Part shown: positions 2,224 through 29,015 of the stretch, one piece after another | Position numbering within the stretch: position 1 is the stretch's first letter | How the letters are laid out: every line of letters starts with the position of its first letter | DNA from: Saccoglossus kowalevskii | Taxonomy: Eukaryota > Hemichordata > Enteropneusta > Harrimaniidae | NCBI RefSeq assembly: GCF_000003605.2 | Contig: NW_003142811.1 | Span: 41,219 to 70,233, forward strand | Length of the DNA stretch: 29,015 bases | Reading direction: 5' to 3' | Translations under genes and position numbers: made by a program | Notes under the pieces: generated by a model | Databases searched by the model: none | Told to the model about the DNA's origin: nothing | Seen by the model: only the letters and a program-made list of their open reading frames with translations

Positions 2224-2419
2224 TATCAACACAGTAAGGTGAAGAATTTATATTCAGTACAAATCTGGCCTCTCTTTTATGGAAAAGTTTGGCTGTATAC
2301 TTTTCAATGCACTGCATTATTACCTCACTTTGGAGCCTCCGGAACTCACGGAGATCCTGATCAAAACACGATCTATATTGAGCTAACTTGTTTGACTTTT
2401 GTGAAATTGTTGTAAAGCA
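2219..2419 (-). pseudogene. Short last open frame of the gypsy element
   Basis: A 66-codon open frame runs on the minus strand from just after a TAA (plus 2420-2422) to a TAG at plus 2219-2221. It reads ...CFDQDLREFRRLQSEV... in its middle and ...KLFHKREARFVLN... near its end. It has a balanced composition unlike chance frames nearby and stops exactly at the polypurine tract. It may be the carboxy end of the polyprotein left after the internal deletion. I do not recognise a domain. It lacks a useful start codon and is not an independent gene. Confidence 0.4.
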
Positions 2420-2642
2420 TTAAGTCAGATCTTTTCTTGTACACTGTACGTTATTTTCATTCCTCGGTTTTGCGTTCGTAATCCATTGAGGCCTAATTGA
2501 TTTGGATAATTTACTAAAGTGAGATACAATCAAAGAAGGGTGACCCAACATGTCTAAAAACAATCGCACGTTCGAAGCACTTCCTGGACGTTTCATGTCA
2601 CGAATGGATTAACTACGCGTTTTATCACAATGCATGCATTTT

Positions 2643-3252
2643 TTACCAAATACGAAGCGAAAAAAAAAATATTTGTGGAACTGAAAATACACATTTTCTT
2701 AAACCTAGCGTAATTCCTTTATCACACAACGTAGTCAAACACTTATCTAGGGTCCGGTAATGCACATTTTGAGTTTTACTGTGTATAATATCGACTGCGA
2801 TACTTTCAATACTTGCGAGATCTGACAGTGCTAAAGTCATTTTATTTTGGCAAATTTCAGCAGTCGCATTTATGCCAAATGGGAGATGTTCATATCGCCT
2901 TAAACCAACATAGGTACTTATTGTGGTGAGATTTCCACATTCTTCTTCGAGTTCAAATTGCAAATAGTGATCATTAGCGTCAAGTTTACTATTTCTTGCA
3001 CAGACAGGGTTACATGGCGCTCTCTGAATTTACGACAATGTAATCGCCACATATTCTCACATTATCAGCTCCAGATTTAGGCACAACAACAAAAGGAATT
3101 ACCCATGGAGTTGGACCATTTACCTACTCCAAAATATCGTCTTCCTGTAATAATTTTCATTCGTTTTCGACCTTTTTTCTCAAATGGTATGGAACGTGTC
3201 TATGGCCTTGTTTTAAGGGTCTGACTTTCGAATCAATATGTAACTTGTATGT
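2643..3252 (-). pseudogene. pol: Gypsy reverse transcriptase, broken
   Basis: The RT would copy element RNA into DNA. On the minus strand, the amino-terminal RT motif appears at plus 3250-3185 (LHIDSKVRPLKQ, then VPYHLRKKVENE). It is followed by GPTPWVIPFVVVPKSG (plus about 3115-3070), RICGDY, KLDANDHYLQFELEEE, then LTTISTYVGLRRYEHLPFGI and the LRKCVF block near the end. These match the gypsy RT block order. Damage: in-frame TGA and TAG codons between the first two blocks, a frameshift with a deletion of roughly 20 codons between RICGDY and KLDAND, and a polymerase motif reading SIAVDII where families have a double aspartate. Only one of the catalytic aspartates remains. Confidence 0.9.
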
Positions 3253-3400: not shown

Positions 3401-3733
3401 CTATTCGTCGTGATTGTGTGCATATTCTTTCTGAATGAGAATTAATTTGTTTCTCTGAAAACCGTAGGCTTCTTTCATGACGGATAGTCCAAAATTTACA
3501 AAACTGTAGCTGTCCAGTACTATACAGGTTTCCAGGTCAACATTGGTTTGTACTATACATTTACATTTTGTTTTCCAAGAAGAAACTTTCCTATCCATTG
3601 TTTCTAAAATTACATTATCATTAATAAATTCATTATCATGCCTATTTAATACGTTACATGAAGCACCAAAATCTAACTTGAAATCAATGGATTTATTCTC
3701 CGTATTCAACGTAGTGAAGGGAAGTTTTGCATG
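3401..3733 (-). pseudogene. pol: Gypsy aspartic protease fragment
   Basis: An open minus-strand frame reads FKLDFGASCNVL near its start (D codon at plus 3671-3673). This corresponds to the retropepsin active-site motif D-T/S-G-A followed by the hydrophobic NVL typical of gypsy elements. Here the residue after the aspartate is F instead of T/S, so catalysis would probably be lost. The frame runs about 100 residues, the right size for a retropepsin, but later motifs are weak. It lies between the CCHC remnant and the RT, as expected for gag-pol, and in a different frame from both. Confidence 0.75.
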
Positions 3734-3963: not shown

Positions 3964-4097
3964 GCGTTGCGTCGTCGGTACTTGGTCCAGAGATCTACGG
4001 GCGTTCTGAGGGAACTCTATGGGAGAACGCGCTGCCGTCAGGTTGGTGGTGGAGTTTCGTCGTTGACAGGAAATGTCTTCACGAAATCAGGATAACC

Positions 4098-4513
4098 ACC
4101 TATACCTATAGTGTCATGGCCAAGAGACATTTCATCTTGCAAAGTACGACGGCGAACCTTCTCAATCTTCTCTCCCTGTATGAGTTGATGTTTATTTTCG
4201 GCGTCTACTGTGTCTTCAATACCACAGTTATTTATCTGTTTCCTTGAACGAGTTACAAACTTGTCAATGCTTTCCTGCTGTCGTCTTGATTGGCACACTG
4301 AAATTGATAAATTTTAAACTCAAGAACGTAAAAAGAAAGTAGTCTTCTAATGCTTTAATCAAATGGCTAGACTCTCGTATGTCGCCGTTTTTGTAGAGTG
4401 AATGGAATCATGATGGCCATCGCATCTTCATAACATATTGAATACTACGTTCATGCGCTGCGTATCTTTCCAATAGTAAAACACGACATTCCAACTGTCT
4501 ATTAACAATTCGC
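4098..4513 (-). pseudogene. gag: Gypsy gag capsid remnant
   Basis: Gag would form the particle. The minus strand carries, in order and across frame changes, YAAHE near plus 4475, GYEDAMAIMIPFTL-like text near 4435, HLIKALEDYF near 4350, then CQSRRQQESIDKFVTRSRK and the stretch ending VRRRTLQDEMSL near 4115. This is the usual capsid series of gypsy gag: an E-E/D-A segment, a K-x-LE-x-YF segment, an ESID-x-(F/Y)VT-x-L(R/K) segment and an LRRR-x-LR/Q segment. Each is recognisable from the family; intervening residues are eroded. No start codon or intact frame survives. Confidence 0.75.
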
Positions 4514-4620: not shown

Positions 4621-4703
4621 GTTGCTATTACTGATGCTAGATCATTGGCTGTCAAGTGTTTACATTTTGAATGACCTATGACATCATGCATATATGCACG
4701 TAG
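4621..4703 (-). repeat. R2 promoter-like repeat, copy 1 (inverted)
   Basis: The reverse complement matches 8501-8600 very closely, including an identical block of about 33 bp (minus strand of plus 4646-4684). The block contains TGATGTCA, AGGTCA and TGTAAACA in fixed spacing. Relative to copies 2 and 3 it lacks about 14 bp that carry the TATA-like segment. It lies about 110 bp upstream of the gag remnant in the same orientation, so it may belong to that element's leader or to another inserted element. Confidence 0.8.
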
Positions 4704-8500: not shown

Positions 8501-8600
8501 CTACATGCAGATACGACTGATGTCATAGGTCATTCAAAATGTAAACACTTCGCAGCCAAAGTATTTAAATAGCTGATCTAGCATCAGATGTAGCAGCAAC
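8501..8600 (+). repeat. R2 promoter-like repeat, copy 2
   Basis: This is the most complete copy of R2. It contains TGATGTCA (8518-8525), AGGTCA (8527-8532) and GTAAACA (8541-8547), then a TATA-like TATTTAAATA near 8562-8571, then TGATCTAGCATCAG and AGCAGCAAC. Similarity to copy 3 continues weakly for about 40 bp more (GGCAGT..., GCACAGAA). The combination of factor-like sites and a TATA-like box in fixed order suggests a promoter, either cellular or carried by a mobile element. No open frame of note follows. Confidence 0.8.
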
Positions 8601-9821
8601 TGGAATAGCTGGCAGTTGAATGTTTTGTAGCACAGAAATCATAATTGATTTAATCATTGAACGGTGAAACGTATGATACCCAAACAAATATTGCTGGTAA
8701 TATTTAGGATTATTCGAATCGATATTTTGGTAAAACGATTCTTGTCTTACAGTATTTTAATATGAAAACTGCATGATTTATTCGAAATACGGTAAGGTAA
8801 ACTAGAGTGAACTTCGTTTAATCTAAATGCCTGTATTTATACCGATATTGAAGCAACCACGTAACCTATGGAAGCGGGAATACCATAATATTTTGCACAA
8901 TCCGCGACAAAAAAACCCACAAACATGAGCTTGGTGAAAATGGTATACGGCGTATTTTACAATGGCTTGCTTCATTAAAAGTACTTTCTCGACTAATCAG
9001 AACGACGTATTCGTGCAAGTGAAATGCTGATATAATGTCATGTAACTTCAATTTTTAATTCCACCATGCCATTTTTTGTAGTGAGCGTCAATCAAAATTA
9101 CATAATTCAAAATCAGAATTCAAATCATTTACTCCAGAAAATATGTATTGTATTAAAAGTAAACAAGGTTTTCAAAATGTTATGTAATTGTGCATAATTT
9201 GACTGAAATAGTGTACCTTCTTTAATAGTGAGTGACTGCGAACCAATCACAGCCACGTCTCTCGCGACAGCCAGGTTGCAGTATGTCATTGCTCAGCGTT
9301 ATAGGGTACAGTACAGTACACAGTTTTTTTGTGAAATTTATTTTAAACTGTGGAATGTATTTTTTAGAACCAATTTGGAAGATAGTGATAAGAACTGCTT
9401 GCAGACTCAAAAACTTAAGCAAATCATGGTACAGGCTATGAAAGATCGTGCACTTGATCACTATATCCGGCCGATCACCAGTACGTCATATGTTAAACAG
9501 ATTTCACCATACAACGAGGTAACGAGGTCGCCATGTTTCACACGTATATAATAGGTAATTTTCCTGTTCACATACGAGTGTAGATTCATTCTACTCACCA
9601 TTTTCGTCTGTCAGAGAACGCGATTAAAAGATGAATCTGTGGAACAGCTTTGCTCATATGATGGGGTAGGTGCGGGCGCACAGTAGAACATTTCGTTATC
9701 ATTCAGTATAGATATTGGTTTACATCTCATTAATACACATACATTAACTTGGCGATTCATTGTATTAAAAATGTAATCGTAGCTCTGTGTATCAAACTAT
9801 GTGCAAATGGTCACATTACGG

Positions 9822-9968
9822 AATATGTCAATTTGTTGAAATCTACAAGAAGTCAAGTTCTCCTGTTCAACATTGTGGTTTGAACTTTGCTCAGACATTG
9901 TGTAAATATACTTACTCAAGCAATTTGTTAAGGTAAATCGTGTAGGCACACAATATGTAACCCATTAA
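9822..9968 (+). repeat. Direct duplication, copy 1
   Basis: This roughly 147-bp segment matches 10207-10362 in the same orientation, about 390 bp away. Shared blocks include TGTGGTTTGAA, CAGACATTGTGT, TTAAGGTAAATCGTGT and CACAATATGTAAC/ACAATATGTAAC. In one frame both copies read CGLNF(A/V)QTLC, but that may simply reflect DNA identity. No gene is visible. Confidence 0.85.
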
Positions 9969-10062
9969 TTAGCCAAACTAGATGCGCCGCTGAAGAAGAC
10001 ATACCATGAGAGTTTGCACAATCCTCCTATAAACACAACCGTGCGCGTCTGTGTATGGAGTT

Positions 10063-10108
10063 GATTGTGCAAAATTGAGGCGGATAATCTACGAGATTTT
10101 GCACAATC
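10063..10108. other. 13-bp perfect inverted repeat (hairpin)
   Basis: GATTGTGCAAAAT (10063-10075) and ATTTTGCACAATC (10096-10108) are exact reverse complements with a 20-nt loop. The same arm recurs as TTTGCACAATC at 10013-10023 and as ATTTTGCACAATC at 8890-8902. It lies between the two copies of the direct duplication. Confidence 0.9.
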
Positions 10109-10206
10109 TACGTCATATGCACACAAGAGTGAACGAGTGTGTATCTGTTATGTGAAGTGTAAACCACAGTTTGCACACAATTAACGTCTGGGCAAAATTA
10201 TGTGCT

Positions 10207-10362
10207 GATATGTCAAAAAATAAAGTCAACAAGAAGTTAATTTTCCCTGGTTGTTGCTGTGGTTTGAATTTTGTCCAGACATTGTGTGACCTTACGCACT
10301 CAACCAATGTGTTTACACAAGTTAAGGTAAATCGTGTGGACAAACAATATGTAACACATTAG
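10207..10362 (+). repeat. Direct duplication, copy 2
   Basis: Second copy of the segment at 9822-9968. It is about 10 bp longer because of a short extra stretch (TGTTTACACAAG region) before TTAAGGTAAATCGTG. Open frames on both strands across this copy are not shared with copy 1 beyond a short block, which argues against coding constraint. Confidence 0.85.
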
Positions 10363-11211
10363 TACACCACCTCTATAAATAAACTGCACGCAAGAATAAT
10401 TATATTCTACAATCACCAAATTAAATGAATATTTCGTGTCTCTCGCCAAGGAATATTTCCTGATAAACTCATTAGTGGTACATGGCAAATAGAATATTCT
10501 GCAACTATACATCGTGTGTACATTTCCCATATTATCTGAAATAAATTGTTGTTACAGTCCTTTTAAAAGCAATGTTCATTTGAGTGATGCAGTCTAGATG
10601 GAGAATAATATTAAACGATTTGAATGAAATGTTGGTGTGATTTATTCACTGTGATACCGAACATGTGGATTATTATTTTATTATCTGACAACAGACCTGC
10701 AAATTCCAGGCACCATGTATGAACCTAACGCGATAACAAACATGGTAATAATTTGTTTTATTATTCACTATCTGCAATATAAATTTTAACAAAACTGAAA
10801 CAAACAAATACACACAATACCAATACAGTAGCTTAGGCTGTTTGATCTGCGTGGGTTTTATACTCACCAAGTTCAACATTTCCTTCCAACAGCAAAATGC
10901 TAAACGTAAATATGTTAGCAGCTGTTTCCTATGAGTGAATATTAATATCGATAAGAAACAGCACATGATGCAAATTACCACCTACCAAATATTTTTTACT
11001 TGAGACATTATTTTCTATTTTAGTTTATGATTAGTGTAAGAAACAGTTCATTATTTACTACGTTGAACGCACACAAGGTCAGCATATTTATATTCCCACA
11101 AATATATACAGTTTGTCGTATTATTGTTCACTGTTTTGTGATGTAATTGTGACAAATATTTGGGTTAACTGTTTCATTGAATACCGAAATGCATCATGGG
11201 CTAACATACAT

Positions 11212-11287
11212 ATTCCCGCCTAATACGTTACCTATAGCTATCACGTGTTTACGTTTGCGAGTGCATCGCCGTACGGCCGAGGTGAGT
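11212..11287 (+). promoter_or_regulatory. Promoter-like module A1 with splice-donor-like end
   Basis: ATTCCCGCC (11212-11220) is followed by TAATACGTTAC, a TATA-like TATAGCTA starting at 11233, CACGTG at 11242-11247 and GGTGAGT at 11281-11287. TTCCCGCC fits the E2F/DP consensus and CACGTG is a class B E-box. The TATA box would place a start near 11263, giving a first exon of only about 20 nt before the GTGAGT donor. The paralogue B1 keeps every element with nearly the same spacing. Confidence 0.65.
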
Positions 11288-11470
11288 ATCGTTTACCCAA
11301 TCTTGTGTCCTTCAAATCAACTGCTTTTATTTTATATATCTTTCATAATAACAGCATATTCAATGTGTGTTAACATTATATTAAACTAAATTTGTTTAAA
11401 ATGAGCTCACAGTGGCAAGGGGTGATCGCGCTTGTCAGGACTGCCTGATCAATGATCACAGCATTGAGAC

Positions 11471-11514
11471 CTCGTGCCATACTCAATATGAAGTACTTCG
11501 TACACCGGCACTAG
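11471..11514. other. Nested inverted repeat downstream of module A1
   Basis: CTCGTGCC (11471-11478) pairs with GGCACTAG (11507-11514) with one mismatch. Inside, TATGAAG (11487-11493) pairs with CTTCGTA (11496-11502) with one G-T pair. The segment is less AT-rich than its surroundings. Copy B has an unrelated small hairpin, GTGGTA...TACCAC at 19335-19351, at a similar distance from its module. Confidence 0.6.
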
Positions 11515-11794
11515 CCAGTATTAATCTTGACATCAAAATCCAATTCACTTAGAAATTTCATCTGATTTGATCATTTTGTTGCTACGGTCATATGGGTGAC
11601 TAAACTAACGCTAATTTATTTGATTTCCCTTTGTCGTGGCTTCAATAGAATGTACAAGAAGATTAATTTACCAATTATTTTACCTTCTTTTTACAGTATA
11701 AAATAACAATTATATATTTGCAAATTAGATTGAACTAACATATCAAATAATTTAATACATGAGATGAATATATAGCACAGTTTAACAACATACG

Positions 11795-11850
11795 ATTCCC
11801 GCCTAATAAATTACTTATAAAGATATTACGAGACAAAGTTCGCAATTGAA
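11795..11850 (+). promoter_or_regulatory. Promoter-like module A2
   Basis: ATTCCCGCC (11795-11803), TAATAAATTAC, TATAAAGA at 11816-11823 and TTCGCAATT near 11839. The E-box position holds ATTACGAG, so that site is lost. Upstream, CACAGTTTAACAA is shared exactly with module B2, and a TATCAAA...TACATGAG block sits about 55 bp before the box, as in B2. Confidence 0.6.
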
Positions 11851-12009
11851 TCAGCCCAATGTTAAGTTGCATGTCTCCATAGTACGAATTATAATATCAT
11901 TTCAGATTGCTTCATCTACATAGATCTAATTCTCTGAATTAATATCTGAAAATTAATTATGTTATTTCTAAAATAAATTTACATGTCACAGTATCAATTA
12001 GAAATTTCT

Positions 12010-12019
12010 GGAAATTTCC
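12010..12019. promoter_or_regulatory. Rel/NF-kB-type palindrome
   Basis: GGAAATTTCC fits the symmetrical kB consensus GGRNNNYYCC and is preceded by a near copy of its half (GAAATTTCTG). It lies between modules A2 and A3 and is absent from the paralogous position in copy B. It is a ten-base match, so chance is possible. Confidence 0.35.
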
Positions 12020-12052
12020 TTGTCCAATATACGACCACAAAGCTGAATTGTT

Positions 12053-12070
12053 ACTTGTAACGTTACAAGT
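12053..12070. other. 18-bp perfect palindrome
   Basis: ACTTGTAAC followed directly by GTTACAAGT is a perfect 18-bp palindrome, upstream of module A3. The matching place in copy B (around 20030-20050) reads ATTTGTAACGATTTCTGAG and is not palindromic, so the structure arose or was lost after duplication. Confidence 0.9.
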
Positions 12071-12150
12071 GAGTTTACACCAATTATGAAGCATGGTTCA
12101 ACTGTCATTGTATATATCATACTCTATCAACGTATGCATTAACGACATAA

Positions 12151-12205
12151 GATTCCCGATTAATACGTTAATTATATAAATATCACGTGGACATTGACTC
12201 GCTGC
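12151..12205 (+). promoter_or_regulatory. Promoter-like module A3
   Basis: GATTCCCG (12151-12158), TAATACGTTA, TATAAATA from 12175 and CACGTG at 12184-12189. Its paralogue B3 keeps a CTGCCGAAGTGAGTATC donor region; here the same place reads CTGCCAAAGTCGATATG, so the GTGAGT is destroyed, and about 13 bp before it are missing. Confidence 0.6.
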
Positions 12206-12496
12206 CAAAGTCGATATGCTGGTTTATTGAATATTTATCCACTCCTGCATAGGATACAATACAACTAATGGACTAATCACTGTGAAACAAGCCTGGTTCT
12301 TATTATTTTTAATAGCTGAAGTGCGTTTGGTATATAATAGCGTTTTGCGCTTTTTCCCCATTCTTTCGGTTGTTTTTTAATTTGTTTTCCTTGGATCATT
12401 CCTCGGATTATGTCTAAGAATAGAATAATTCAAAATATTTGTACACGAGTTTTACTTTTACGCCCAAATGCTCTGTGAATCAACATATACATATAG

Positions 12497-12545
12497 TGTT
12501 CCCGCTATGTATGTCACTTACAACCTATAAATACCACGTGTTTTG
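12497..12545 (+). promoter_or_regulatory. Promoter-like module A4
   Basis: TGTTCCCGC (12497-12505), then TATAAATA from 12526 and CACGTG at 12535-12540. The GC box to TATA spacing is about 28 bp, 5-7 longer than modules 1-3, and module B4 has the same longer spacing. The upstream GAATCAAC...CATATAGT stretch is also shared with B4. No GTGAGT follows. Confidence 0.6.
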
Positions 12546-14000
12546 CGTTTTTATCTATTTCAAATCTATTGCGTATTATCCCTGTTATAAAGGTTTGCTA
12601 ATGCGTTATAATTTATATGGACTTTGACCTGATTCAATGCATATTATTTATACTCAAGACACCAACTACCTTCTTTCTTAAATGTCTATAAATGAGAATA
12701 AATATCTAATTGAACATATATTTTAATTACCAATACGCGATAACACGTCTGGAGTGATTGGTTTTGCCATATTAGAACGGGTTTGTTCATGCGCAATTAA
12801 GGTCATATTACCTTGTTGACACATTCATACAAGGAATCAAAACGCACAAAACAAGAAAACAATTCTATATGTAAGTTCGAAGATTAACAAGACCAATATC
12901 TGTAGCACTTGTGAAAGAGTTCCGAAGTTTTAACTGCTTGAAACCAAGGCTGTATGACATTTGTATTCTTCCAAGTGCCATTGAACCTTCATCAATATCT
13001 TAAATTATCAGATGGATGTGACATTTAATCAATAAAACGTATAAAAGTGTTTTTCATTCAATTCTATCAGTCAGAATATTTGTATAAAATTGTACATGTA
13101 TATGATTAAGGACATAACGAATTCTTTTTTACGGCATTATTTTGTAAGGAGGTATAGGTTTGTTGTAAAATTATATTTTTTCTAATCAACTTGATGGTTA
13201 TATGATTTGTTTTCAATTACTTTTGGCAGCACCTGGCTTAATCGAGTTCAATAATAATATTTGTAATATTTATGCGGAGAGTAAACAAATGGTTTTGTTT
13301 TTGTTTTTCCAATCCGAGAGTGTATAAGTGAACTTGCAATTGTAATTATAACAATCTACTGAATTTGAATCAATTACTAATTGAAGTCAACTTTTGCACC
13401 AACCGTTGGTCACTAAATGGCACAAATTAATAAATTTGAAAAAAACATAATGTCCAAACTCACTTAATGTTTTTTTGTTGCTTTTTTGTTTCACTGTCAC
13501 ATAATATCAATATATTTAATCATGCCAATTGTCTTTTAAAAAGGGTAATTAAAAATTATTCATTAGATGTTTTGCTGCAATTTGAATTTATGAATTGACA
13601 TTTTATTATTTTATTATTTCACCCACTAAATTCAGTGTACTTATTTCATAGATGGTTTATCGCTACTGATAACTTCCTCGGTCAAGACGTTCAAAAACAC
13701 CTTTTTCAAAGCCTCATGAGAAAACTTCATCAATTTTACTAGGGAGTTCAAAACACAAATTATGAGGAAAAATCATAATATCAAAATTGAGATAAAGGTT
13801 AATCCGAACTTGAGGTTAATGTTTTCGGTTAAGATGTTTACTTCAAATCAAACAGATTATATTGATACAAAGGGGTAATCGCAATTTAAAATTGAAAACA
13901 TTTCATTCCGTATTCAATTCCGGGAGCTCGTAATTTCGGTGTACATGAGCAGTCAGCTGTTAAATTGAGACCAGTCGTATTCGTGTTCGGTTATTAACCC

Positions 14001-14024
14001 CAGATATGCAGATATACAGATATG
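14001..14024. repeat. Three 8-bp tandem units
   Basis: CAGATATG, CAGATATA, CAGATATG in a row, directly abutting R2 copy 3. R2 copies 1 and 2 carry related but shorter TGCATATA/TGCAGATA text at the same place. Confidence 0.85.
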
Positions 14025-14130
14025 CATGATGTCACAGGTCAATTTAAATGCAAACACTCGACTGCTAGTGTATTGTAATATTTCATCTAGCTACAGATAT
14101 AGCAACGTGTAGTTGGCAGTGTCTCGAAAT
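14020..14130 (+). repeat. R2 promoter-like repeat, copy 3
   Basis: TGATGTCA (14027-14034), CAGGTCA, AAATGCAAACACT, then TGTATTGTAATATTT in place of the TATA-like box of copy 2, then ATCTAGCTACAG and TATAGCAAC. More diverged than copies 1 and 2 but collinear with copy 2 throughout, including the stretch that copy 1 lacks. It lies about 250 bp after the end of duplication A; no R2 copy follows duplication B. Confidence 0.7.
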
Positions 14131-14729
14131 ACAATAGTTGATTGTATATATTGCACAGAAGTACCAATTTGCGTAAATCAGTACGTACTAGGTTGCGTAT
14201 GTTTACTATTGTGACCAGCATGTTAGTTATTTAGCTTATATCAACAAGAGACTATAACGAGTAAAATTTAAATAATGTTATTATTGTTCGTTATAGACTT
14301 GCAATGTAGTTTTCATTTTGATGAGAAAGAACTTATAGGTGTATTACTGACTTCAATTGGTAACTCCATAACCGCGGCTGCACTTAATTTCAGAACATGA
14401 AGAATGTACTGTATTTTGATAAAGTATTTACAATATGTGTAAATCAAGTAATATTTCTGAGTAATATCTGGAAAGTATGTTGGTGAGAACCAATATTCAT
14501 CTCTTAGGTTGTCAACCAATTATTGCCCGTTTCCCTTGTTATAGTTGACATAAAATTAACACGTCTCCAGGATCAATGTTATTTATGCTTCAGAAAGAGC
14601 CTACACTCATGTGAATGTATTATAGTTTCATGCCATTGTATTTGCATGACGTGTCCCTTTTGATACAATTAATTAAGCTCAATGTCAAATTTGAGAATTA
14701 ATTTCCAGTCCTTGCTTTTAGAACTCATC

Positions 14730-15130
14730 CTAATGATTATTATTTGCAAAATGTCATTTCACCGTTTCTTGCTCTTTCTACCTTCACATTTTAATTGTTT
14801 CTCTTGATTCTTCCGGCCTGTGTTTCCTGGTTTACTTTAATTATGGAATATTTAGTTTTTTATGACTCTCATGTTCTTTATTGTATGATTTTATTTCTCA
14901 TTTTACTCTTCCAAGCCTATTAAAATGAAGTTTGTCACATCATTTACTCTCTCAACTTCTATAGTTAAATTTAGTTCATGCTTTACACCACCAGTTACCA
15001 TGGTATGATTTTCCTCTCAAACTTTAATGTCTCAACAATTATGGTATGGTATGTGTTTCAAATTTCAATCACTCGGTCCTTGTAGTGTGATTTTTGTCTC
15101 ATGCTCTTCCCTCTCAACTCATATTGTGTT
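14730..15130 (+). repeat. Degenerate pyrimidine-rich tandem repeat
   Basis: A motif beginning G(T)ATGATTTT and continuing with TCTCA..TCTTCC occurs near 14883, 15003 and 15086, and related text (ACTCTCATGTTCTTT, TCTTGCTCTTTC) precedes them. CTCTCAACT recurs near 14950 and 15113. Periods are irregular (about 120 and 83 bp). The plus strand is strongly C+T rich. Probably an old minisatellite. Confidence 0.5.
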
Positions 15131-17345
15131 AGGCGTGCATGACGTGTCGTTGTTTTCTCGTTGCAATACTGTTCTATGCTTGCAAGTCAGTCTTCCGTGA
15201 ACCGGATTTTTTTCAGCGGTACAACGATCCGCTGGCTCCAGCTTGATTTAAAGATTTAGCAGTTTAAATTGTTAATCACAGTTTAGTGTAATTTCATCGT
15301 CATTAGTTTCATTAACAGTAAATGTAGTAAATCAATAATACAGATTATGAAGGCAGCTTTTGCCCTCGGCTACCCTGAGATTAATGTCCTGTCAGAAGCA
15401 CTACATTATGGTTTCATTTTTTTAGCATACACTGAGTTTAATATTGCGTATATTGTCGAGTGCACTTTATTTATTTAATTTATTAAATTATCGTAAAAAG
15501 TTGTAGTTTTGTATCGCTTTGGCGTCATTTGATTTGACGTGTTTTGTCCAATTATGCTGGTCAAACGCTGGGAATTTTGCAATAGTTAAGGTTGATAACT
15601 GCCTCAGTTTAACCCATTCACTCGTACATTGTTTACTTTTGGATAAATGTCCCTTGCTACTGTAGGGACTCTAACTCGTTGCGAATTGACTTAAATACAC
15701 AGGGTTTTAATCTGACTGATTCCTGCTGGGATTTGAGCAATGTGCAATGTGACTAAATTAATAACATGTTCCCTTTATATTGAGTAAACCGTTACCTGAT
15801 AGTATATGATTGCGTTTGCTGTATATTCCCATTGACTACAGCAGAGTCACGAATTACTGCTTATTGGATATTGGTTATATACAAACATACAAGTCACAAT
15901 TAGTGCACGCCTTTTCATCACATGATGTACAATTATTTAAAAATGAGAGAAATAATTATCCGAAAAAATAAATAAATCAGACTTGCCTGATATAATTACT
16001 TGCATAGGAAAATAAATTATATTTGTACTCTTGTCAATGATGTTGCAGTGTTTTGCAATCTTCAATATTTTACATTGTCACTGGTTGACATCCTGCAGAC
16101 GATTGAGTTTCCCGCGGTAACAACCTTCTGTTTGTATAATGCATTCGTTTACTCGATGTATACTTTCAGTATGTCAGGAAATCGATACATTTATCTACGA
16201 AACATATATTTGAAGTAAATACGGGATAGGTCATGTTTGAGGCTACTCCGTATATTTCAACGCTTCAGCTCTTTTAGCCTTGTTACGATTACGAGATGGG
16301 AATTTTTTGGCGAACGTTTAATAATACAATTCTTATTTTGTGCGAAGGGAAATGACGAACCTTAATAGTAAGAGTCTTTGAAATAATGCGTTTTCATCAT
16401 TCAATTTTGAGCAATATCATTTCATTGCGGCGATTGAATAATTTCATCGTCCGGGTTGTAACTACACGTGTTTTTTTTCATCTGGAATGAACAGTTCCAT
16501 CGCTGGCTGAGAAATAGATATTTTAGATAATGAATTAAAATGATACACAGATACATATCTTAGTTAACGAATTGTTAAATCTTGCAAAAATATTTAGCAT
16601 TATACTTGTCTGCATATTTACTGATTATGCAAATCATTTGATGGTGTACATTTAGATTGACTGACACGTTACTGTGCTTCAGTATATACTTAATACATAT
16701 CGCTTGATATGTTAGACATTTATGACTCACGTGTGTATATTCGTATTTTCATTAGGATGTTGCCAAATCGACGCCATGTTTGTTAGTGTTAGTAGTTAGT
16801 AACATTCCTCTATTCAGTAACTTATACGTTTTGAGAGGTTTGACCCAGAGTTTGCATGACCTTTAATGTATTTGTACATACAAAATAACTCATTTGCGAT
16901 TTTAAGAAAAACGCTTAATGTGTTTAATTATAAATCACTTAAAGTGATTTTAAAGTTGGACGAAAATGTGTAATATTTTAAAAAACATAGATTTACACTG
17001 TAACAACTGATCCGTAGTACATGGTTTTAACAGTGCCCTATTAATGCTTTCAGCATTTGAAGATGGAAAAGTACGGACAATATTAAGCCGTGATTTAAAA
17101 CATTAACGCAGTTTTTAAATGGTTATGAATGGTTATAGTTAACATTTTCGAATTGTTTTAACTGCAGCTCCTGACTATAATTATACGGGGCAACTTTGCT
17201 TAGTACAACTCTTTATCGTCTTATTGACACTACTCAACAATATGTTAAAATAAGAATATGTATTTTATTTTTTCGCCAGGAAGAGCATTGTCCTGTTAAC
17301 ATACAGGTCCAGGACATTGTTGTCTTTGATAAGTAATTTTATCAA
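15131..17345. other. Non-coding stretch, no gene seen
   Basis: AT-rich, with only short open frames (such as 16000-16218) that carry no motif. It holds one 19-bp near-palindrome, AAATCACTT-A-AAGTGATTT at 16932-16950, whose arms resemble NK2-type homeodomain sites. Otherwise nothing was noted. Confidence 0.6.
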
Positions 17346-17388
17346 ACAATCGGTTCTACACAAAATCAGCTAGACATAGAACGATTGT
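17346..17388. other. 12-bp hairpin with one bulge
   Basis: ACAATCGGTTCTA (17346-17358) pairs with TAGAACGATTGT (17377-17388) over 12 base pairs with a single bulged G and an 18-nt loop. No poly-T terminator or known RNA family is recognisable. Confidence 0.8.
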
Positions 17389-17819
17389 CCATTCATTTTG
17401 AATGCTGATCATGTATTTCCTTTAACACCTCTTTTTAAACTAAAGAAGGCATAATGCATGGCATTGATGACACACGTGATCACATATTTGTTGTGAAACA
17501 GGCTACTATGAAAGAATATGTTCCGATGTTAGCCGTAATGTAATAAGCATAAATATTCCCAGGTTTCTTACATTTCTAAATGTTTAGGACAAATTTTGCC
17601 GGGATGACTTGAATTCAAATGTTATTTATGTGCACACAACAAACGTATTGCATACCTGTTTAACGCTTCTAGATTTAACTGAGCATGTAAAATAATTGTG
17701 ATCTAATTGATATGCACTAATTTATTTCGATATTACAAACAAAAATAATAATAATTGTTTTTTCATTTCATGGCAACTTACAGACATTATTCAAAATCGC
17801 AATCAAAACACCTTTATTT

Positions 17820-18620
17820 CAAATAAGTTGATGCTACCAGGGAATCAAAATTTGGGACGTAAATTATTTGGACGACAATTATAACCAAGGGGTGAGAGAC
17901 TACTTACCGCGGCGACATGAAGCTACGGTGTCTGCGACCCCAATCATATTTTAATTTTAGTAAGCTAAGGCAAAACCCGTGTTTATGCTATGAGAAAGTG
18001 CAGTATTTTAGTGGAAATACATTTTTTACTATCACGGCGAACGCAATTTAATGCGAGTGAATTCCCCTACAAATTTCCCTAGTTGTTTGCGGTGTCCAAG
18101 GGCAAAAACATTGTTATGCAAATTAGCTTTAGTTGAAATTTTGAGTTTTCTCGACGATTTGAACCAAAATGTTATCGGCAAGACTCGGGGTACGACAGCG
18201 ACAGTCAATGAAACGTTATTGAAGGCAAATGAACATGTCAGCCAAAAACGACTGTTTCGAGTTGTGGCGTAAAATGAAGGCACATACCATTTTGACGCTT
18301 GAGGGGAATGGAAATCAGTTGATTTGAGGGTGTCACAATAAGCGAGGGAGCAATTCGTGTTTATGCTACGAAAAAATGCAGACCTTGAACGTACTTTTTG
18401 GACTTTGGTACTACGTAAATTTTGTTTGATATCCTAAGGTTTTTAGGTTCATGTGCTGCAAGTTACAGAGCACATACCAAAGCGGTCGTCGCTCAGCAAA
18501 TAATCAAGCAAAAGAATTTTCGATGTCGAAATCGCGAAACTCGCTCCTTTTACGCAAACTGGGACGTTCAAATTACATAACGATATACAGGACGACGAAG
18601 CTTAGCTCTATGCTGATATA
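17820..18620. mobile_element. CpG-richer, internally repeated block
   Basis: This block is clearly less AT-rich and more CpG-rich than its flanks. It contains an internal direct repeat: CGTGTTTATGCTATGAGAAA... (from about 17978) recurs as CGTGTTTATGCTACGAAAAA... (from about 18358), about 380 bp apart, with ATACATTTTTTACT/GTACTTTTTGGACT after it. GCACATACCA recurs at about 18280 and 18470. The overlapping open frames on both strands at 18032-18283 are a by-product of composition. A fragment of a fairly young mobile element is the best guess; no terminal repeats or protein motif were found. Confidence 0.4.
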
Positions 18621-19114
18621 AATGACATATCATGTCATTGCATAGCGTTTAAGGGTACATAGAAGCACGATGCAGTGTTTTAACTCGACTTTAAGTGAAG
18701 GGTCATTTCCAAGAGTAATCTCCATGTAGCCGTATGTGGAACTACATATTAGTTCATGATTACGCACGTAACAGTTTATTGACGCTGAATAAAAAAAGTA
18801 GAAAATAATATGTGGATGAGTCAATATAACCATCATCCGCGTTTCTGTTGATATTATATAGGATGATTTGAATTGGTCACATTAGAAATTCAACTTTTTG
18901 AATTGTTTAAATCCACAACAGATACCATTGATAATCTAGAAAATGAAATTTAACAATTTTTCTCGTTATTGCTATTGGTTGTGTTTTGTGGTTCGTCATT
19001 AACTTTATGAACTGTAAAATTACTGCGTAGGTTATGACTCAAAAGCCAAAACATATTTGTGTAACTAACACATCAAACACCGAAATGCCTTCTGGGTGAA
19101 GCCACACTAACATC

Positions 19115-19193
19115 ATTCCCGCCTAATACGTTACCTGTATGCCTGTCACGTGTTTACATTCGCAATTACACCATTGTGCGGCCTGAGGTGAGT
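19115..19193 (+). promoter_or_regulatory. Promoter-like module B1 with splice-donor-like end
   Basis: ATTCCCGCC (19115-19123), TAATACGTTAC, a weak TATA position (TGTATGCC near 19136), CACGTG (19147-19152), TTCGCAATT (19159-19167) and GAGGTGAGT ending at 19193. E-box to GT distance is 41 bp versus 40 in A1. A CATCAAACAC...GAAATGCC block sits about 44 bp upstream and resembles the one before B2, so the modules share more than their cores. Confidence 0.65.
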
Positions 19194-19719
19194 GTCATTT
19201 TCAAAACCATTGCTCCCAATGTATACAACTGATATAGTATTCAACAACATACGTTAACACTATAATTTAGATGAATTTGTGTCAGTTACCTCACAGTCGG
19301 AGAATAGATATTCTAAATTATTATGAGCCAAATTGTGGTAATGTGTACCACTGCATGACTGCGTCTGTTTCGTGTGCTTTGCACTAATGTTAAAGTTTTT
19401 CATTTTCCGCAGAAATCTCTACTTTGTGTGACATGCGTTACATTCCTTGATTTTTAGGATATTTACATATTCCATCCACACATAGCGCAGAGTTAGCTTG
19501 GTCCGCATTGATATTCTTGCTGATTTTGTCAGTCCAATTTTGGTTGATTTTTCAATAAAAATATATTGCAGTTTTTCACTTGTTATGAAATTTCTACTTC
19601 AGTACACATTTATAAATTTATGAATTATATTTTAACACAGTAGAAAATAGCAAGTAACCAAACTCATCAAACATTGAAATACATGAGGAAGAATATACAG
19701 CACAGTTTAACAATACAAG

Positions 19720-19776
19720 ATTCCCGCCTAATAAGTTACTTATTTAAATATTATGTGACAGAGTTCGCAATTGTAT
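19720..19776 (+). promoter_or_regulatory. Promoter-like module B2
   Basis: ATTCCCGCC (19720-19728), TAATAAGTTAC, TATTTAAATA at 19741-19750, a degenerate E-box (TATGTG) and TTCGCAATT near 19764. It matches A2 over more than 120 bp including the upstream block. No donor-like GTGAGT follows. Confidence 0.6.
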
Positions 19777-20100
19777 CAACTCGCTGATTGTATCTTTCAC
19801 CATATGTCTCGTAGTTCAAATTCACTAACCATAGTTCAGACGTATAATACGAATTGTGTTATGTACAGTCATATCAGAGTTCTATGTTTTTATTGGTCAA
19901 TTTGTTTAGATTTTAACTTCGACCTAATTTCCAGTGTAATTAGATATTCTAAAACGTAATTATGTTATCACAAGAGTAAATGTATGTGAAACACAATTAA
20001 TTACTAGTATAACTACAAAGCTGAAATGGTATTTGTAACGATTTCTGAGACATGGTCTGTGAAAATATTATATAATCCCACGCACGCATTACCAACATGA

Positions 20101-20180
20101 GATTCCCGCCAAATATGATACTTATAAAAGTATCACATGGCCATATTCACAATTCTATCACAACTGCCGAAGTGAGTATC
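20101..20180 (+). promoter_or_regulatory. Promoter-like module B3 with splice-donor-like end
   Basis: GATTCCCGCC (20101-20110), TATAAAAG at 20123-20130 (the best TATA box of the set), CACATG at 20134-20139 and GTGAGT at 20172-20177. A start about 30 bp after the TATA box would fall in TTCACAATT, an initiator-like sequence, again leaving a roughly 20-nt exon before the donor. Confidence 0.65.
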
Positions 20181-20696
20181 TAGGCGCGTTTACAAATAGT
20201 ACAAGTTTTCAATGCAAAACAGTTTGTTGCTATACACCTTTTTTGAATAGTAATGTGCACCAATTCGTTATACTTACACTAGTCGTTATTAGACACTCAA
20301 AACGGAAGCTTTATTTCAAAAATTGTTTTAAATAAACGAGTTTCCAGAAATTTAATTCGAAACATGTTTAAAATTACCCGCCAAAATATCATGACCTGCT
20401 AAAATCCATGTGCTGGTCTCTTGAATATATACTCACTTTAGCCTGAAGTAGGGCACAGTACGGCCTTTATTATTGCTGATTTTGTTGTTTCAAGAGTGTT
20501 TTGTTATTATTAATGTACTGTTAATTTATATTTGTTTTCGTTTGTTTCAATATTTTGACATAATTTTTTTGAATTGTACAATCACTGTTTGAATTATGAT
20601 TATGTATACACATAGGGAGCAATTCAAAACATTTGTATCAGGGTTACACAAACACGACGAGCCCTCAAATACACTGCGAATCAACGTACATATAGT

Positions 20697-20760
20697 ATTC
20701 CCGCCCTGAACGTTACGTATTACTTATAAATACCACGTGACCATGCGTGCAACTTCATCG
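20697..20760 (+). promoter_or_regulatory. Promoter-like module B4
   Basis: ATTCCCGCC (20697-20705), ACGTTACGT, TATAAATA from 20725 and CACGTG (20734-20739). It shares with A4 the extended 28-bp box-to-TATA spacing and the identical TATAAATACCACGTG. No GTGAGT donor is seen downstream. Confidence 0.65.
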
Positions 20761-21973
20761 GCACACTTACAGTTCTAATTGAATCTGTGTTGCAAACACC
20801 AAAATAAAGCTGGGATATTGAGTGATAGGTATGATTATGGTAGATCAACAATCTGTACTATTTTGTAATTGGTTCAGAAGTGATACAGTTAGTAAACTCA
20901 AGAATTTGGAAATTTGATTCAGCCCCAAAGAGTTAAAGTGACCTTGAAATTTGTGAATCTGAATCAATTTTCTACTGGAAGTCAAATTTTAGACTATGCG
21001 TTAGATTACTATGAGTAACAATTTCAAAGAAAAGCATAATGTTCAAAAAAATCTGTATGGCAAGTGTTTTACCATATCACGTATATAAACATTAAACGCT
21101 TTTGTGTTGACAAGACTAGTTTTTTCATTTTAGAATTGTAATGGTTTCAATTATTATTTGCTTTTTCAGTGTGATTTCAGCTCCTCTTATTCTTATTATG
21201 ATTTCATGGACATAATTCGATTCCAAACATATATTTTGTGTGCCAGAGTGTTCAATTCCGAACTTTACAAGTGGTATATGTACAAGTAGCTATATGTTAT
21301 TTATTTAAATATTGTTTCTAGCCAATGATTGTTTCGAAACTTAGTGTTTTGATTCTTTGCACGTGTTATTCCGACTGAGACGGATTGTTCAAACACTCTT
21401 TTATAATATACTTCAATTTGACTTTAAAGCATAAATTATGAAGACTAAAAGTGTTCAGAATTTGAAATAAAGTAAAAGTCAAGACACGTCAAAAAACATT
21501 CTTCTCATAGGGAATTGATCAAAATGGTCGAAAAAGATACATATTTTGCCAATCATCTTACACTATAAAAGTCTGATATAAAATATTATTTCTGACCTTA
21601 GTTATTGTCTAATTTTATAATAAACATGCTTCTTTTTGTAATTGCCAAACATTTAAAATTGTGGAAGGGAAATTATATATAGCGCCATATGCACATTTGT
21701 ACAAAATTTTAATTTTAATGTTGTGCGAATAATTGTAATATCATTAAAAGTATAAATCGATTTTTAAATAATCGTGTTGTGTAGCCAATGAAAAACATAC
21801 ATTACAGGCATGTAAATCCCTGTTGTAAATATAACACTAGCTGTTTAATAAAAAGAATATATGTATATCGCTTACTGTCCTGATTTCTGGTTATACAATT
21901 CGCTATCTCGAATATGATTTTAAGAATACAAGATCTCTTACAAAATTTTCAATAACTTTGATCAATAAAAAAT

Positions 21974-25971: not shown

Positions 25972-26098
25972 ACAAATTACCGTGGTGTTTCAAATAGTAC
26001 ATATTATTAAATTCATGAAACAAATCTGTCATGTTGTCTTGTTTTATAGTTTTAGCATTTTAAAAAACTATATTTTTTACTAATAGAGCGCCACCACC

Positions 26099-26185
26099 AT
26101 GCAAACAAATATTAGAAATTGGGATTTCCTGTCCCTCAGGAATGTATTTGAATTAATTATTTGTTGTTCAATCATTCAAGTCTAA
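26099..26185 (+). CDS. Candidate 28-codon micro-ORF with strong Kozak context
   Basis: The ATG lies in GCCACCACCATGC, close to the ideal vertebrate-type start context, after a TATATTTTTTA run. The frame encodes 28 residues (beginning MQTNIRNWDFLSL) and ends TAA. The product has no recognisable motif. Context and length could both be chance. Confidence 0.12.
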   Translation: MQTNIRNWDFLSLRNVFELIICCSIIQV

Positions 26186-26728
26186 TTATTTCCTGTTCAC
26201 TTTATTACATGGAGGAAAAAATAAGGAAAATACTACGACATAATATTAGCATTTTAGTATACCATTCATAGCCATGTCCATATTTTACTGCTGTTTTCGT
26301 CGAATCAATGTAATAATCGTTTACTGCCTACAAACAAAGAAATAACTTCACAAATAAGTTGAACACGTTACGACTCAGTTTACCAGACCCTTTCACACAC
26401 GATATATTATTATGCTATTTCCTAACGCACACATATTAAATACATTGACAAAGTAAAAACAAAAATGTAAATCAGGCTTGTAATTACTAGTACTAGAAGT
26501 ACCTCGAACACAACAATGATAACTGTAAAAGTGGATAAATTCGAAGCAGCCATCACATTTAAAATTCAAACGATCTAGTTGAATGTCAATCAAAACCAAA
26601 CTCTATGTTTTGAAAGACAAAATATACTTGTAACAAAACAACATACACAAGTAAAATATTAAATATCACAAGCAAGGGAGCAAACAAAAGTTAGCTGTAA
26701 AACACGAAAATGTGCATGTGGGAAAGCG

Positions 26729-26815
26729 ATGAGTAACGAACAGAACAGAGCTCGTGGTTCATCAAGGAAACTTAGCGATGGCGAAGTTAGATATATATGT
26801 ATAGACAGCTGTTGA
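26729..26815 (+). CDS. Candidate 28-codon micro-ORF, hydrophilic
   Basis: An ATG in AAAGCGATGA opens a 28-codon frame beginning MSNEQNRARGSSRKLSDGE and ending TGA. Its composition is unusually rich in polar and charged residues for this AT-rich DNA, unlike the F/I/Y/L-rich chance frames around it. It may be a real small peptide, a leader ORF for the frame at 26872, a first-exon fragment, or chance. No family is recognised. Confidence 0.15.
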   Translation: MSNEQNRARGSSRKLSDGEVRYICIDSC

Positions 26816-26871
26816 AAACAGGAACTTCTTTGATCTCATATCAGCAGATTCACGTGAAAAAATAGAAACGA

Positions 26872-27066
26872 ATGGCAAGCCAAGCATTAGAAAGATATTT
26901 ATGGATTAATCGGGATTCAGCTACACTAGTGTTTGTAACTGAGTATATAGACTTGTGCGTATTGGTTCTGGAATTGTCTATATCTAAATATATGCAAACA
27001 ACCAGGCTTTCTTTGATTCACCCCAAATTATTCGAATGTGTATTCAGAAATTTAAGAAATTGTTAA
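26872..27066 (+). CDS. Candidate 64-codon ORF, unrecognised
   Basis: A 64-codon frame starting ATGG and beginning MASQALERYLWINRD. It follows the small frame at 26729 by 56 bp. Composition is mixed in the first third, then hydrophobic. No motif, no signal peptide, and the length is compatible with chance. Confidence 0.12.
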   Translation: MASQALERYLWINRDSATLVFVTEYIDLCVLVLELSISKYMQTTRLSLIHPKLFECVFRNLRNC

Positions 27067-27242
27067 AATAATCCTTTACAGGTATATGTCTGACAAATAA
27101 TATTGCGCAATTCCCCAGGCAGTAATACAAATTATTGCTGATACTAATCACTTTTTGTTATACTTGAACGTGTCGGATGATCTTTGTATTGGCCACATGT
27201 AATCGCCGCAGTACGCTTCATGTATAGATTATTAAATGTTTA

Positions 27243-27323
27243 GTTTGATGATTGATAAACATATATTCACTGTGACACTGTTGCGTTCATGTTTGATGAT
27301 TGAAAAACATATATTCACTGTGA
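27243..27323. repeat. Tandem pair, 48-bp period
   Basis: A 33-bp unit beginning GTTTGATGATTGA and ending TTCACTGTGA occurs at 27243-27275 and 27291-27323 with a single difference. The near identity suggests a recent event. Confidence 0.92.
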
Positions 27324-27844
27324 AAATATGAAAATGTTTGCATGTTCTGCTGTCAACATTATTTGACAATGTGAGATACGCATTTTATATCTCGATTGTA
27401 TTTTTCTATTTGTAGTACACGTTTGAAACACTTGAAAAGGGTTTACATATATGACACCATTTTGTCGTTTAATTTTTCTGGGCATTGTTTTATTTGTGTA
27501 AACATTCTATTTTTATGTAGATTGTAAACAGGTCAGATATATTCATATGCAGAATGTAATTTCCACTGATAAGTGTACACTGGTATTGCCGTAGCTATTG
27601 TGAATAAGACCTACTTATTTGAGACTTGACTTTAGTCAATTTCTAACCGCAACAGCAATTCGCTAACAATTGAGCTAATTAGCTTTTTTTGGTGGTGAAT
27701 GTAGTCGTAACAAATTATACTTGCAAATGAGAAAGAAGGAACGTAGCATCAATATAGCATAGTCAAAAACCGTAAACGTGTCAATTAAAAAATTGTATTA
27801 TTTATACTAATTTTGCGTAACTAACTCGGTTATCGTTTTGTTAT

Positions 27845-28171
27845 TCATGAGAAATTCGTAACTGGATACGTGCCGAGCATTTTTCTTTCTTTCACAAATA
27901 ATTTACGAGCAGTAACTAAAGAAGGGGTTGTTTTCCTGTGATTTTTATCGCGTCTAGTTATGGTCTTCTTGTCCAACATTGGCGCAGCAAATTGTTTCTT
28001 CGAACATCGGCAATTTTGTTTCATAATGAAAATAATTTTATTAGATCTCTCACAAGAGAAACTTGAAGGATTAGCTTGTGTGTTAATACCCAACTTGTAC
28101 AGTGGGGCAGTAATGTTCGTCAGTGGATTATCACTCGTTGGTGTTTGTATAACAATGGAAGCAATGTCACG
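27845..28171 (-). pseudogene. Unrecognised 108-codon open frame
   Basis: On the minus strand a frame is open from a TAG at plus 28172-28174 to the stop at 27845. It reads NPLTNITAPLYKLGINTQAN early and SLVTARKLFVKERKML late, with a lysine/arginine-rich middle. The same frame continues sensibly above the TAG (TAGIWNPVLL), which hints at a decayed coding sequence. The opposite strand is open too (27960-28232), so composition may explain both. I recognise no domain. Confidence 0.2.
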
Positions 28172-28497
28172 CTACAGCAGTACAGGATTCCAAATGCCAG
28201 CTGTTTTCTTAAATTTTTACACTACCGCTTGAAATTATTCGTGATTCGATTAGCTAAGGAATATATTCTTGCTGGATAGCACCGAGTCTGATATAAATAT
28301 ATGTTTGAACTAAAAGTATAACAACCCTCATGAGTAGGTGGTTTGACATTTTAAAGAAGTTCAGCACTAGTTAGCTGTCATTGATGTGAAGGTTGAAATC
28401 CCATGCTATAATGATATTATAGGTTGTAAGAGGAATTCCAAAAAAAGTAGTAATTTTTTTTCTTGTGGAATATGCTGACTTGTACAGAACGTACATA

Positions 28498-28720
28498 TTT
28501 AGCAGTGATTTTTAGCAGTGAATCTCAGGTAATCCAGGATTATGTCGCCAAGTGGCGGCATGAGACGGCCTCAAATAACCTTTCAATGTAAATAATAACA
28601 ATCTCGTCTTTATGTGTCCCTAATGTAAAGTTTACAGATTTGTATACGGTGTCTTTGTCGTGTTCGTTTGTGTCACCCGGGGTTTGCGTTGGATTACTTC
28701 CATTGTTCCTCATTTGATAT
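28498..28720. other. Less AT-rich patch with small palindromes
   Basis: TTTAGCAGTGA occurs twice in tandem at 28498-28520, and CGCCAAGTGGCG forms a short palindrome near 28549. The sequence to about 28720 is less AT-rich than its flanks (ACGGCCTC, CACCCGGGG). It could be a conserved or recently inserted segment. No reading frame or RNA family is recognised. Confidence 0.3.
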
Positions 28721-29015
28721 AATGTTTAATAAGTTTAGCGCACAAAGCTAATAACTGAAGAAGGTGTACTTTGGGCTATTATGTGTTTTTTTCATATACA
28801 AATGAATGATTAGTGGCAGAAAACTAGAAAAATAAAAGTCAATTTTTCAGTTTGTCTATTTTCTGATAAAATATTCGGCACAAACTGTTACTGTCAAAGT
28901 ATGTAATGTTCAAATGATTGTTAGTAAACTCAATCTACTTTTTATTATACCTTGGATAAATACCTATCAATTCTATACAATACCAAAATAAAAACCTACT
29001 ATAATCATGGCGATT
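28721..29015. other. Non-coding tail, nothing seen
   Basis: AT-rich sequence with no open frame, repeat or motif that I can support. Confidence 0.6.

Follow-up and report, generated by a model that had tools for sequence, protein, structure and literature searches.

The DNA analysed here is a stretch of 29,015 bases from Saccoglossus kowalevskii (hereafter the window; C3367:41219-70233 in a 572 Mb assembly), with a G+C content of 33% (mean of 1-kb rows) and a CpG observed/expected ratio of 0.96; by eye it is rich in introns and poor in open reading frames, as animal DNA would be. Two blocks, A and B, lie at approximately 11.1–13.8 and 19.0–21.5 kb and carry four promoter-like modules each, numbered 1 to 4, and a third array of related modules, C, is present on contig C1011 of the same genome. 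Each module would comprise an E2F-like box followed by a TATA-like element and, in most cases, an E-box (the labels E2F-like, bZIP-like and E-box being those that we presume to apply to the module sites), and some modules are followed by a 5' splice site (donor). The features of the two blocks are as follows, with box positions given as starts.

11110..13800 (edges approximate), + strand: block A, duplicated segment, from self-comparison; likeness to C begins at 11118
11182..11287, + strand: module 1A, with box at 11212, E-box CACGTG at 11242 and donor at 11282
11282..11287, + strand: 5' splice site GAG/GTGAGT of module 1A, joint top donor score on the window + strand
11729..11863, + strand: module 2A, with box at 11795 and TATA, no E-box, no donor within 100 bases
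12122..12227, + strand: module 3A, with box ATTCCCGAT at 12152, TATAAATA and CACGTG, no donor
12465..12573, + strand: module 4A, with box GTTCCCGCT at 12498, long spacing, TATAAATA and CACGTG, no good donor
19010..21470 (edges approximate), + strand: block B, duplicated segment as matched to A; likeness to locus C extends on both sides
19085..19193, + strand: module 1B, with box at 19115, E-box CACGTG at 19147 and donor at 19188
19188..19193, + strand: 5' splice site GAG/GTGAGT of module 1B, joint top donor score on the window + strand
19653..19788, + strand: module 2B, with box at 19720, no E-box, no donor within 100 bases
20072..20177, + strand: module 3B, with box at 20102, TATAAAAG, CACATG and donor at 20172
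20172..20177, + strand: 5' splice site GAA/GTGAGT of module 3B, rank 14 among donors on the window + strand
20662..20772, + strand: module 4B, with box at 20697, long spacing, TATAAATA and CACGTG, no good donor

The first-pass annotation had placed four modules in each of two segments, and all eight were recovered, every one on the + strand. Allowing one mismatch, ATTCCCGCC occurred seven times in the window against 1.32 expected (none of 100 shuffles reached seven); six of these matches were modules, all of them exact, and the remaining one lay at 8873 on the minus strand. When the window was scanned with a two-block matrix derived from all eight modules, these scored 55.7–71.9, the other eight of the 16 + strand rows listed being register shifts within the modules (14.1 at most) and the best minus-strand score being 5.5. 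With a leave-one-pair-out matrix, which holds the six other modules, seven of the eight modules were outscored by six or seven + strand positions; module 4A was weaker, with 12 + strand positions and one minus-strand position scoring higher. The proposed build of box, TATA box and usual E-box held generally but not throughout, as the TATA box is poor in module 1 (TATAGCTA in 1A, TATGCCTG in 1B), modules 2A and 2B lack an E-box, and 3A and 4A have altered boxes. Counted from the first base of the box to the script-picked TATA-like element, the box-to-TATA distance is 28 in module 4 against 21–23 in modules 1–3 of A and B (5–7 more bases), in agreement with the longer spacing annotated for module 4; across the eleven modules of A, B and C it spans 13–28, the pick of 17 in 1C being doubtful.

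Each module of A proved closest to its namesake in B, as had been proposed. Self-BLAST of the window paired module n of A with module n of B at 72–84% identity, types 2 and 3 showing weaker matches to each other as well, and in a tree of the eight modules (support given as Shimodaira–Hasegawa-like approximate likelihood ratio test (SH-aLRT)/bootstrap) 2A joined 2B (94.4/95), 3A joined 3B (85.8/81), 4A joined 4B (92.5/86), and 1A and 1B were set against the rest at 92.2/87. Of the four pairs, module 2 is conserved best (BLAST identity of 84% across 113 bases, and 79% across 136 bases in a second comparison), and a 20-base core of module 1, ATTCCCGCCTAATACGTTAC, is identical in A and B, the TATA-like part not being kept. 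Module order is the same in both blocks, and spacing is roughly maintained from module 1 to 2 (583 in A, 605 in B) and from 2 to 3 (357 and 382) but not from 3 to 4 (346 and 595), so that the annotated conservation of order and spacing stands only in part. The inter-module spacers retain A–B homology (z = 3.7, 6.4 and 9.1 over 200 dinucleotide shuffles), which indicates that a block of approximately 2.5–2.7 kb was copied whole and that its spacers then drifted. Homology was also present in the tail (13340–13860 with 20920–21500; z 4.5); it was not clear to the left of module 1 (z 1.6) or directly past module 4 (z 1.7), and z was −1.2 beyond the right edge. The trees, both that of the eight modules and that with C added, bear out the earlier view that four distinct modules predate the block duplication. 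A–B BLAST, the shuffle z-scores and the B–C identity likewise agree with the annotated outlasting of spacers by cores, but the spacers also keep traces of homology.

Locus C, the reverse complement of the readable end of contig C1011 (14,506 bases), carries modules 1, 2 and 3 at C:1837, 2445 and 2782, and a fourth module was not found in these 14,506 bases. It resembles the window to the left of A (pieces within 9747–10867) and then from 18716 onward, so that C is without approximately 7.85 kb that include array A, and B and C can be aligned through their spacers too, except for the stretch with module 4, which is absent in C. When C was included in the tree, B and C grouped for module 1 (98.4/92) with A outside, and weakly for modules 2 (67.5/60) and 3 (53.2/65); array A therefore seems older than the B–C split. 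Module 3C (L009, C:2782) has 10 bp fewer than 3B between the box and the TATA/E-box, approximately one helical turn. The likely order of events would be the origin of four module types, then the block duplication that gave A and B, and later the copying of the locus as C, where array A and module 4 were not found.

Genome-wide counts cover the readable sequence of the 572 Mb assembly, and counts of DNA matches are lower bounds. Used as a DNA query, module 2 gave three matches (A, B and C) and module 4 gave two (A and B), and the 20-base core with up to two mismatches gave six, which are modules 1 and 2 in all three arrays; the reversed control gave none, and none were found in viral contigs. 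A looser pattern (box, 10–30 bases, TATA) gave 94 matches versus 92 in the control, six of the 94 being judged by eye to belong to the family, four in the window and two on C1011. A run of 22 bases of the module 3 leader is identical in B and C and has no other exact match, the seven further matches each having three mismatches (versus eight control matches).

Comparison of B and C also allowed conservation to be followed along the modules, window 20372–20758 (module 4, absent in C) having been removed before identities were counted. Columns −60 to +79 of modules 1–3 were 81.8% identical (401 aligned columns, 5% gapped) and the remainder 75.1% (1861 columns, 13% gapped), a modest excess whose module value was equalled by circular shifts of the alignment in 0.24% of cases. 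By part, identity was 81.2% at −60 to −15, 81.2% in the core and 85.9% in the predicted start and leader (+37 to +69), and dropped to 71.2% at +80 to +150.

A good 5' splice site was found in five of the eleven modules, 38–41 bp past the E-box (40, 41, 41, 38 and 38 bases in 1A, 1B, 1C, 3B and 3C, respectively), scored with an approximate donor matrix of splice-site frequencies. The donors at 11282 (1A) and 19188 (1B), 70 and 73 bases past their boxes, are the two best on the window + strand, and that at 20172, 70 bases past the box of 3B, ranks 14. Among donors on the modules' strand in the 14.5 kb of locus C, those at 2842 (3C) and 1910 (1C) rank second and third, and although their letters have changed (GTGAGA and GTGCGT) they are donors nonetheless. 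No ATG lies between E-box and donor in 1A, 1B, 1C or 3B. In a simple neutral simulation under three assumed divergences, all three copies of module 1 kept a donor with a probability of 0.01–0.09, and for a single module both its B copy and its C copy did so with a probability of 0.07–0.21, figures obtained with a threshold of 8.3 (the score of 3B itself) set post hoc, with types 1 and 3 picked after inspection and the donorless types outside the simulation. Module 2A has a site scoring 9.2 at +274, for which no counterpart was seen in 2B.

We favour, at a probability of roughly 0.5, the reading that the locus holds an array of alternative RNA polymerase II (Pol II) promoters with short leaders spliced to a downstream gene, with promoter function, start point, polymerase and splice partner all predicted from the sequence. 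In types 1 and 3, a start approximately 30 bp past the TATA-like element would give a leader exon of about 17–26 nucleotides (nt) ending in the 5' splice site, and the leaders would be joined to a downstream coding exon. The first-pass annotation had allowed for either short transcripts or alternative first exons; we prefer the latter because five of the eleven modules have a donor at a near-fixed distance, a regularity in two module types that suggests alternative starts of a longer message rather than short-RNA genes. Array A is most likely partly decayed.

No target gene for the arrays was seen within the window. The candidate partner in C is a gene, predicted by eye, that shares the strand of the modules and has its ATG exon at C:13333, 10.5 kb downstream of the array, to which array C is linked by position only. 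That exon is signal-peptide-like and further exons have AG and GT borders (by eye), and part of the predicted protein resembles, by eye only, an immunoglobulin (Ig) V domain without cysteines. Pfam gave no match for a joined stretch of the protein and chance matches elsewhere (one at E 0.72), and a search of the readable genome at E 0.1 with the open reading frame (ORF) that holds the fourth exon gave no further match. In the window, 49 of the 100 ORFs of at least 55 codons were scanned with Pfam, including all seven that overlap a module; none of these seven (the longest of 90 codons) gave a match, and all matches among the 49 were below the cut-off, the best being a reverse transcriptase piece. 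On the window's contig and strand, L019 96-4335 (+) contains a set of exon-like ORFs whose end resembles, by eye, a transmembrane stretch; these ORFs gave no Pfam match above the cut-off, showed no likeness to the C gene and were not used. Local second exons at acceptors 11697 and 19413 (ranks 5 and 4; between modules 1 and 2) were considered and dropped.

Several observations weigh against alternative first exons. Six modules (2A, 2B, 2C, 3A, 4A and 4B) have no site of at least 8.3 within 100 bases of the box, and if the ancestor of all modules had a donor these six would represent losses that fall outside the simulation; the best-conserved pair, module 2, is among them. Types 2 and 4 are thus unexplained by leaders and may have other donors, be regulatory or be relics. 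The TATA-like part of module 1 is weak, the leader of 3C contains one ATG, and the donor letters themselves are only 73.1% identical between B and C (26 columns), below the modules overall. The acceptors at 11697 and 19413 were rejected because they are not shared, the AG of 19413 in B being CG in C. At locus C, the acceptor-like site ahead of the ATG of the gene, C:13270, ranks only 36 and is thus mediocre, and the best donor, at 11439, belongs to no module and is closer to the predicted gene than the array is, so that the gene may start there. Finally, likeness between the window and C was found only as far as window position 26230, and tblastx of window 26000–29015 against C gave no match.

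The next most probable reading, though we consider it doubtful, is that the modules are clustered regulatory elements (E2F-like, bZIP-like and E-box sites) that are not themselves transcribed, and that the donors are by-products of shared sequence. Such elements would fit the retention of ATTCCCGCCTAATACGTTAC without the TATA-like part in module 1, as well as a best-conserved module that has neither donor nor, in 2A and 2B, an E-box, but would leave unexplained both the common orientation of all modules and the high local rank of the type 1 and type 3 donors in three arrays despite changes in their letters.

That the modules form a cluster in which each is a separate gene for a short noncoding RNA, transcribed by Pol II or RNA polymerase III (Pol III) from a promoter like those of small nuclear RNAs (snRNAs), appears rather improbable. 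The compact layout, with a short conserved box ahead of a TATA-like element, does recall the proximal sequence element (PSE) plus TATA of snRNA-type promoters, and the lack of Pfam matches in the module-overlapping ORFs agrees with noncoding products. However, no Rfam family reached its gathering score in the window, and the six weak matches in 11000–21600 (searched up to E 5) were all below gathering, the best at E 0.22. No fold was clearly common to A and B, since for none of the eight strongest listed folds inside the blocks did the other block show a clear counterpart (by eye, without shuffles), and a tRNA scan with bacterial settings found nothing clearly common to the two. B–C identity at +80 to +150 falls to the 71.2% given above. 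For fly U6 promoters a PSEA-to-TATA separation of 12 bp is described (PMC4227766), whereas the box-to-TATA distance here varies from 13 to 28, with no known RNA downstream and a donor in five of the eleven modules. A spliced-leader RNA was also considered, on account of the short leader, and was rejected, since B–C identity falls past the donor and the leaders differ among modules; an Sm-like site was sought by eye only.

It is unlikely that the modules are relics of a formerly active promoter array that has been decaying since the duplication, with core likeness partly kept by gene conversion. Decay is visible in the altered boxes of 3A and 4A, the donorless 3A, the 10 bp missing from 3C and the lack of a module 4 in C, and the modest B–C excess is compatible with it; against this, 1B, 1C, 3B and 3C retain the box (with one base changed in 3C), an E-box-like word and the donor, and the grouping of module 1 of B with C rather than A argues against recent A–B conversion there. 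That the modules are promoter pieces of an ordinary mobile element is very improbable. The window does contain a degenerate piece of a reverse transcriptase as well as other repeats, but in the readable genome the counts of module 2, module 4 and the 20-base core showed no copy beyond these two loci, let alone the hundreds of dispersed copies that the first-pass annotation would have taken as the mark of such an element, and module order was kept and flanks were duplicated too.

Elsewhere in the window, an element with the core GATGTCATAGGTCATTCAAAATGTAAACACTT (in its best copies) occurs three times, at 8505–8595, 14014–14104 and 4645–4703 (minus strand). Direct repeats at 9839–9967 and 10223–10361 share 73% identity and lie beside the 90-base fold that was strongest when the window was scanned (10041–10130), and window 9207–9970 resembles L021 at approximately 2337–3103, on the same contig in the opposite direction (partly by eye). 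The reverse transcriptase piece lies at 2643–3029 on the minus strand (E 0.0021, below the Pfam cut-off), and degenerate retrotransposon-like pieces were seen by eye only at 3401–3733 and 4038–4313 (minus strand).

A text search of the literature for ATTCCCGCC showed no such promoter among the titles and abstract openings listed, and no fitting match for duplicated arrays of noncoding first exons was found among the papers listed. In the clustered protocadherins and UGT1, the variable first exons encode a large part of the protein. The predicted leaders here are about 20 nt long and mostly without an ATG, and the longest module ORF, of 90 codons and without a Pfam match, gives no sign of a coding first exon of that kind. 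What these systems share with the present arrays is the tandem arrangement of related promoters that have a motif in common, which in the protocadherin clusters is termed the conserved sequence element (PMC4978886). By analogy with protocadherin promoter choice, but with the protein unaltered, the modules could be near-equivalent promoters with interchangeable tiny leaders, multiplied as blocks, from which a cell picks one for a downstream cell-surface receptor gene; this promoter-choice device, for which the C gene offers a signal-peptide-like start and Ig-like exons (by eye, no Pfam match), is a long shot. Should the leaders prove to be in use, it is promoters and not coding exons that would have been multiplied as ordered arrays, and the benefit would be control over the time and place at which a single message is produced; the three arrays, being of different age, also show which parts of a module are fixed (the E-box-to-donor distance) and which drift (the box-to-TATA spacing). 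Among the closest known systems is human NR3C1, the glucocorticoid receptor gene, with alternative noncoding first exons of one gene. Compared with that type, a good donor is present here in five of the eleven modules and the common exon is predicted only, and, unlike the situation in NR3C1, the modules are recognisable copies of each other and the ordered array has itself been duplicated.

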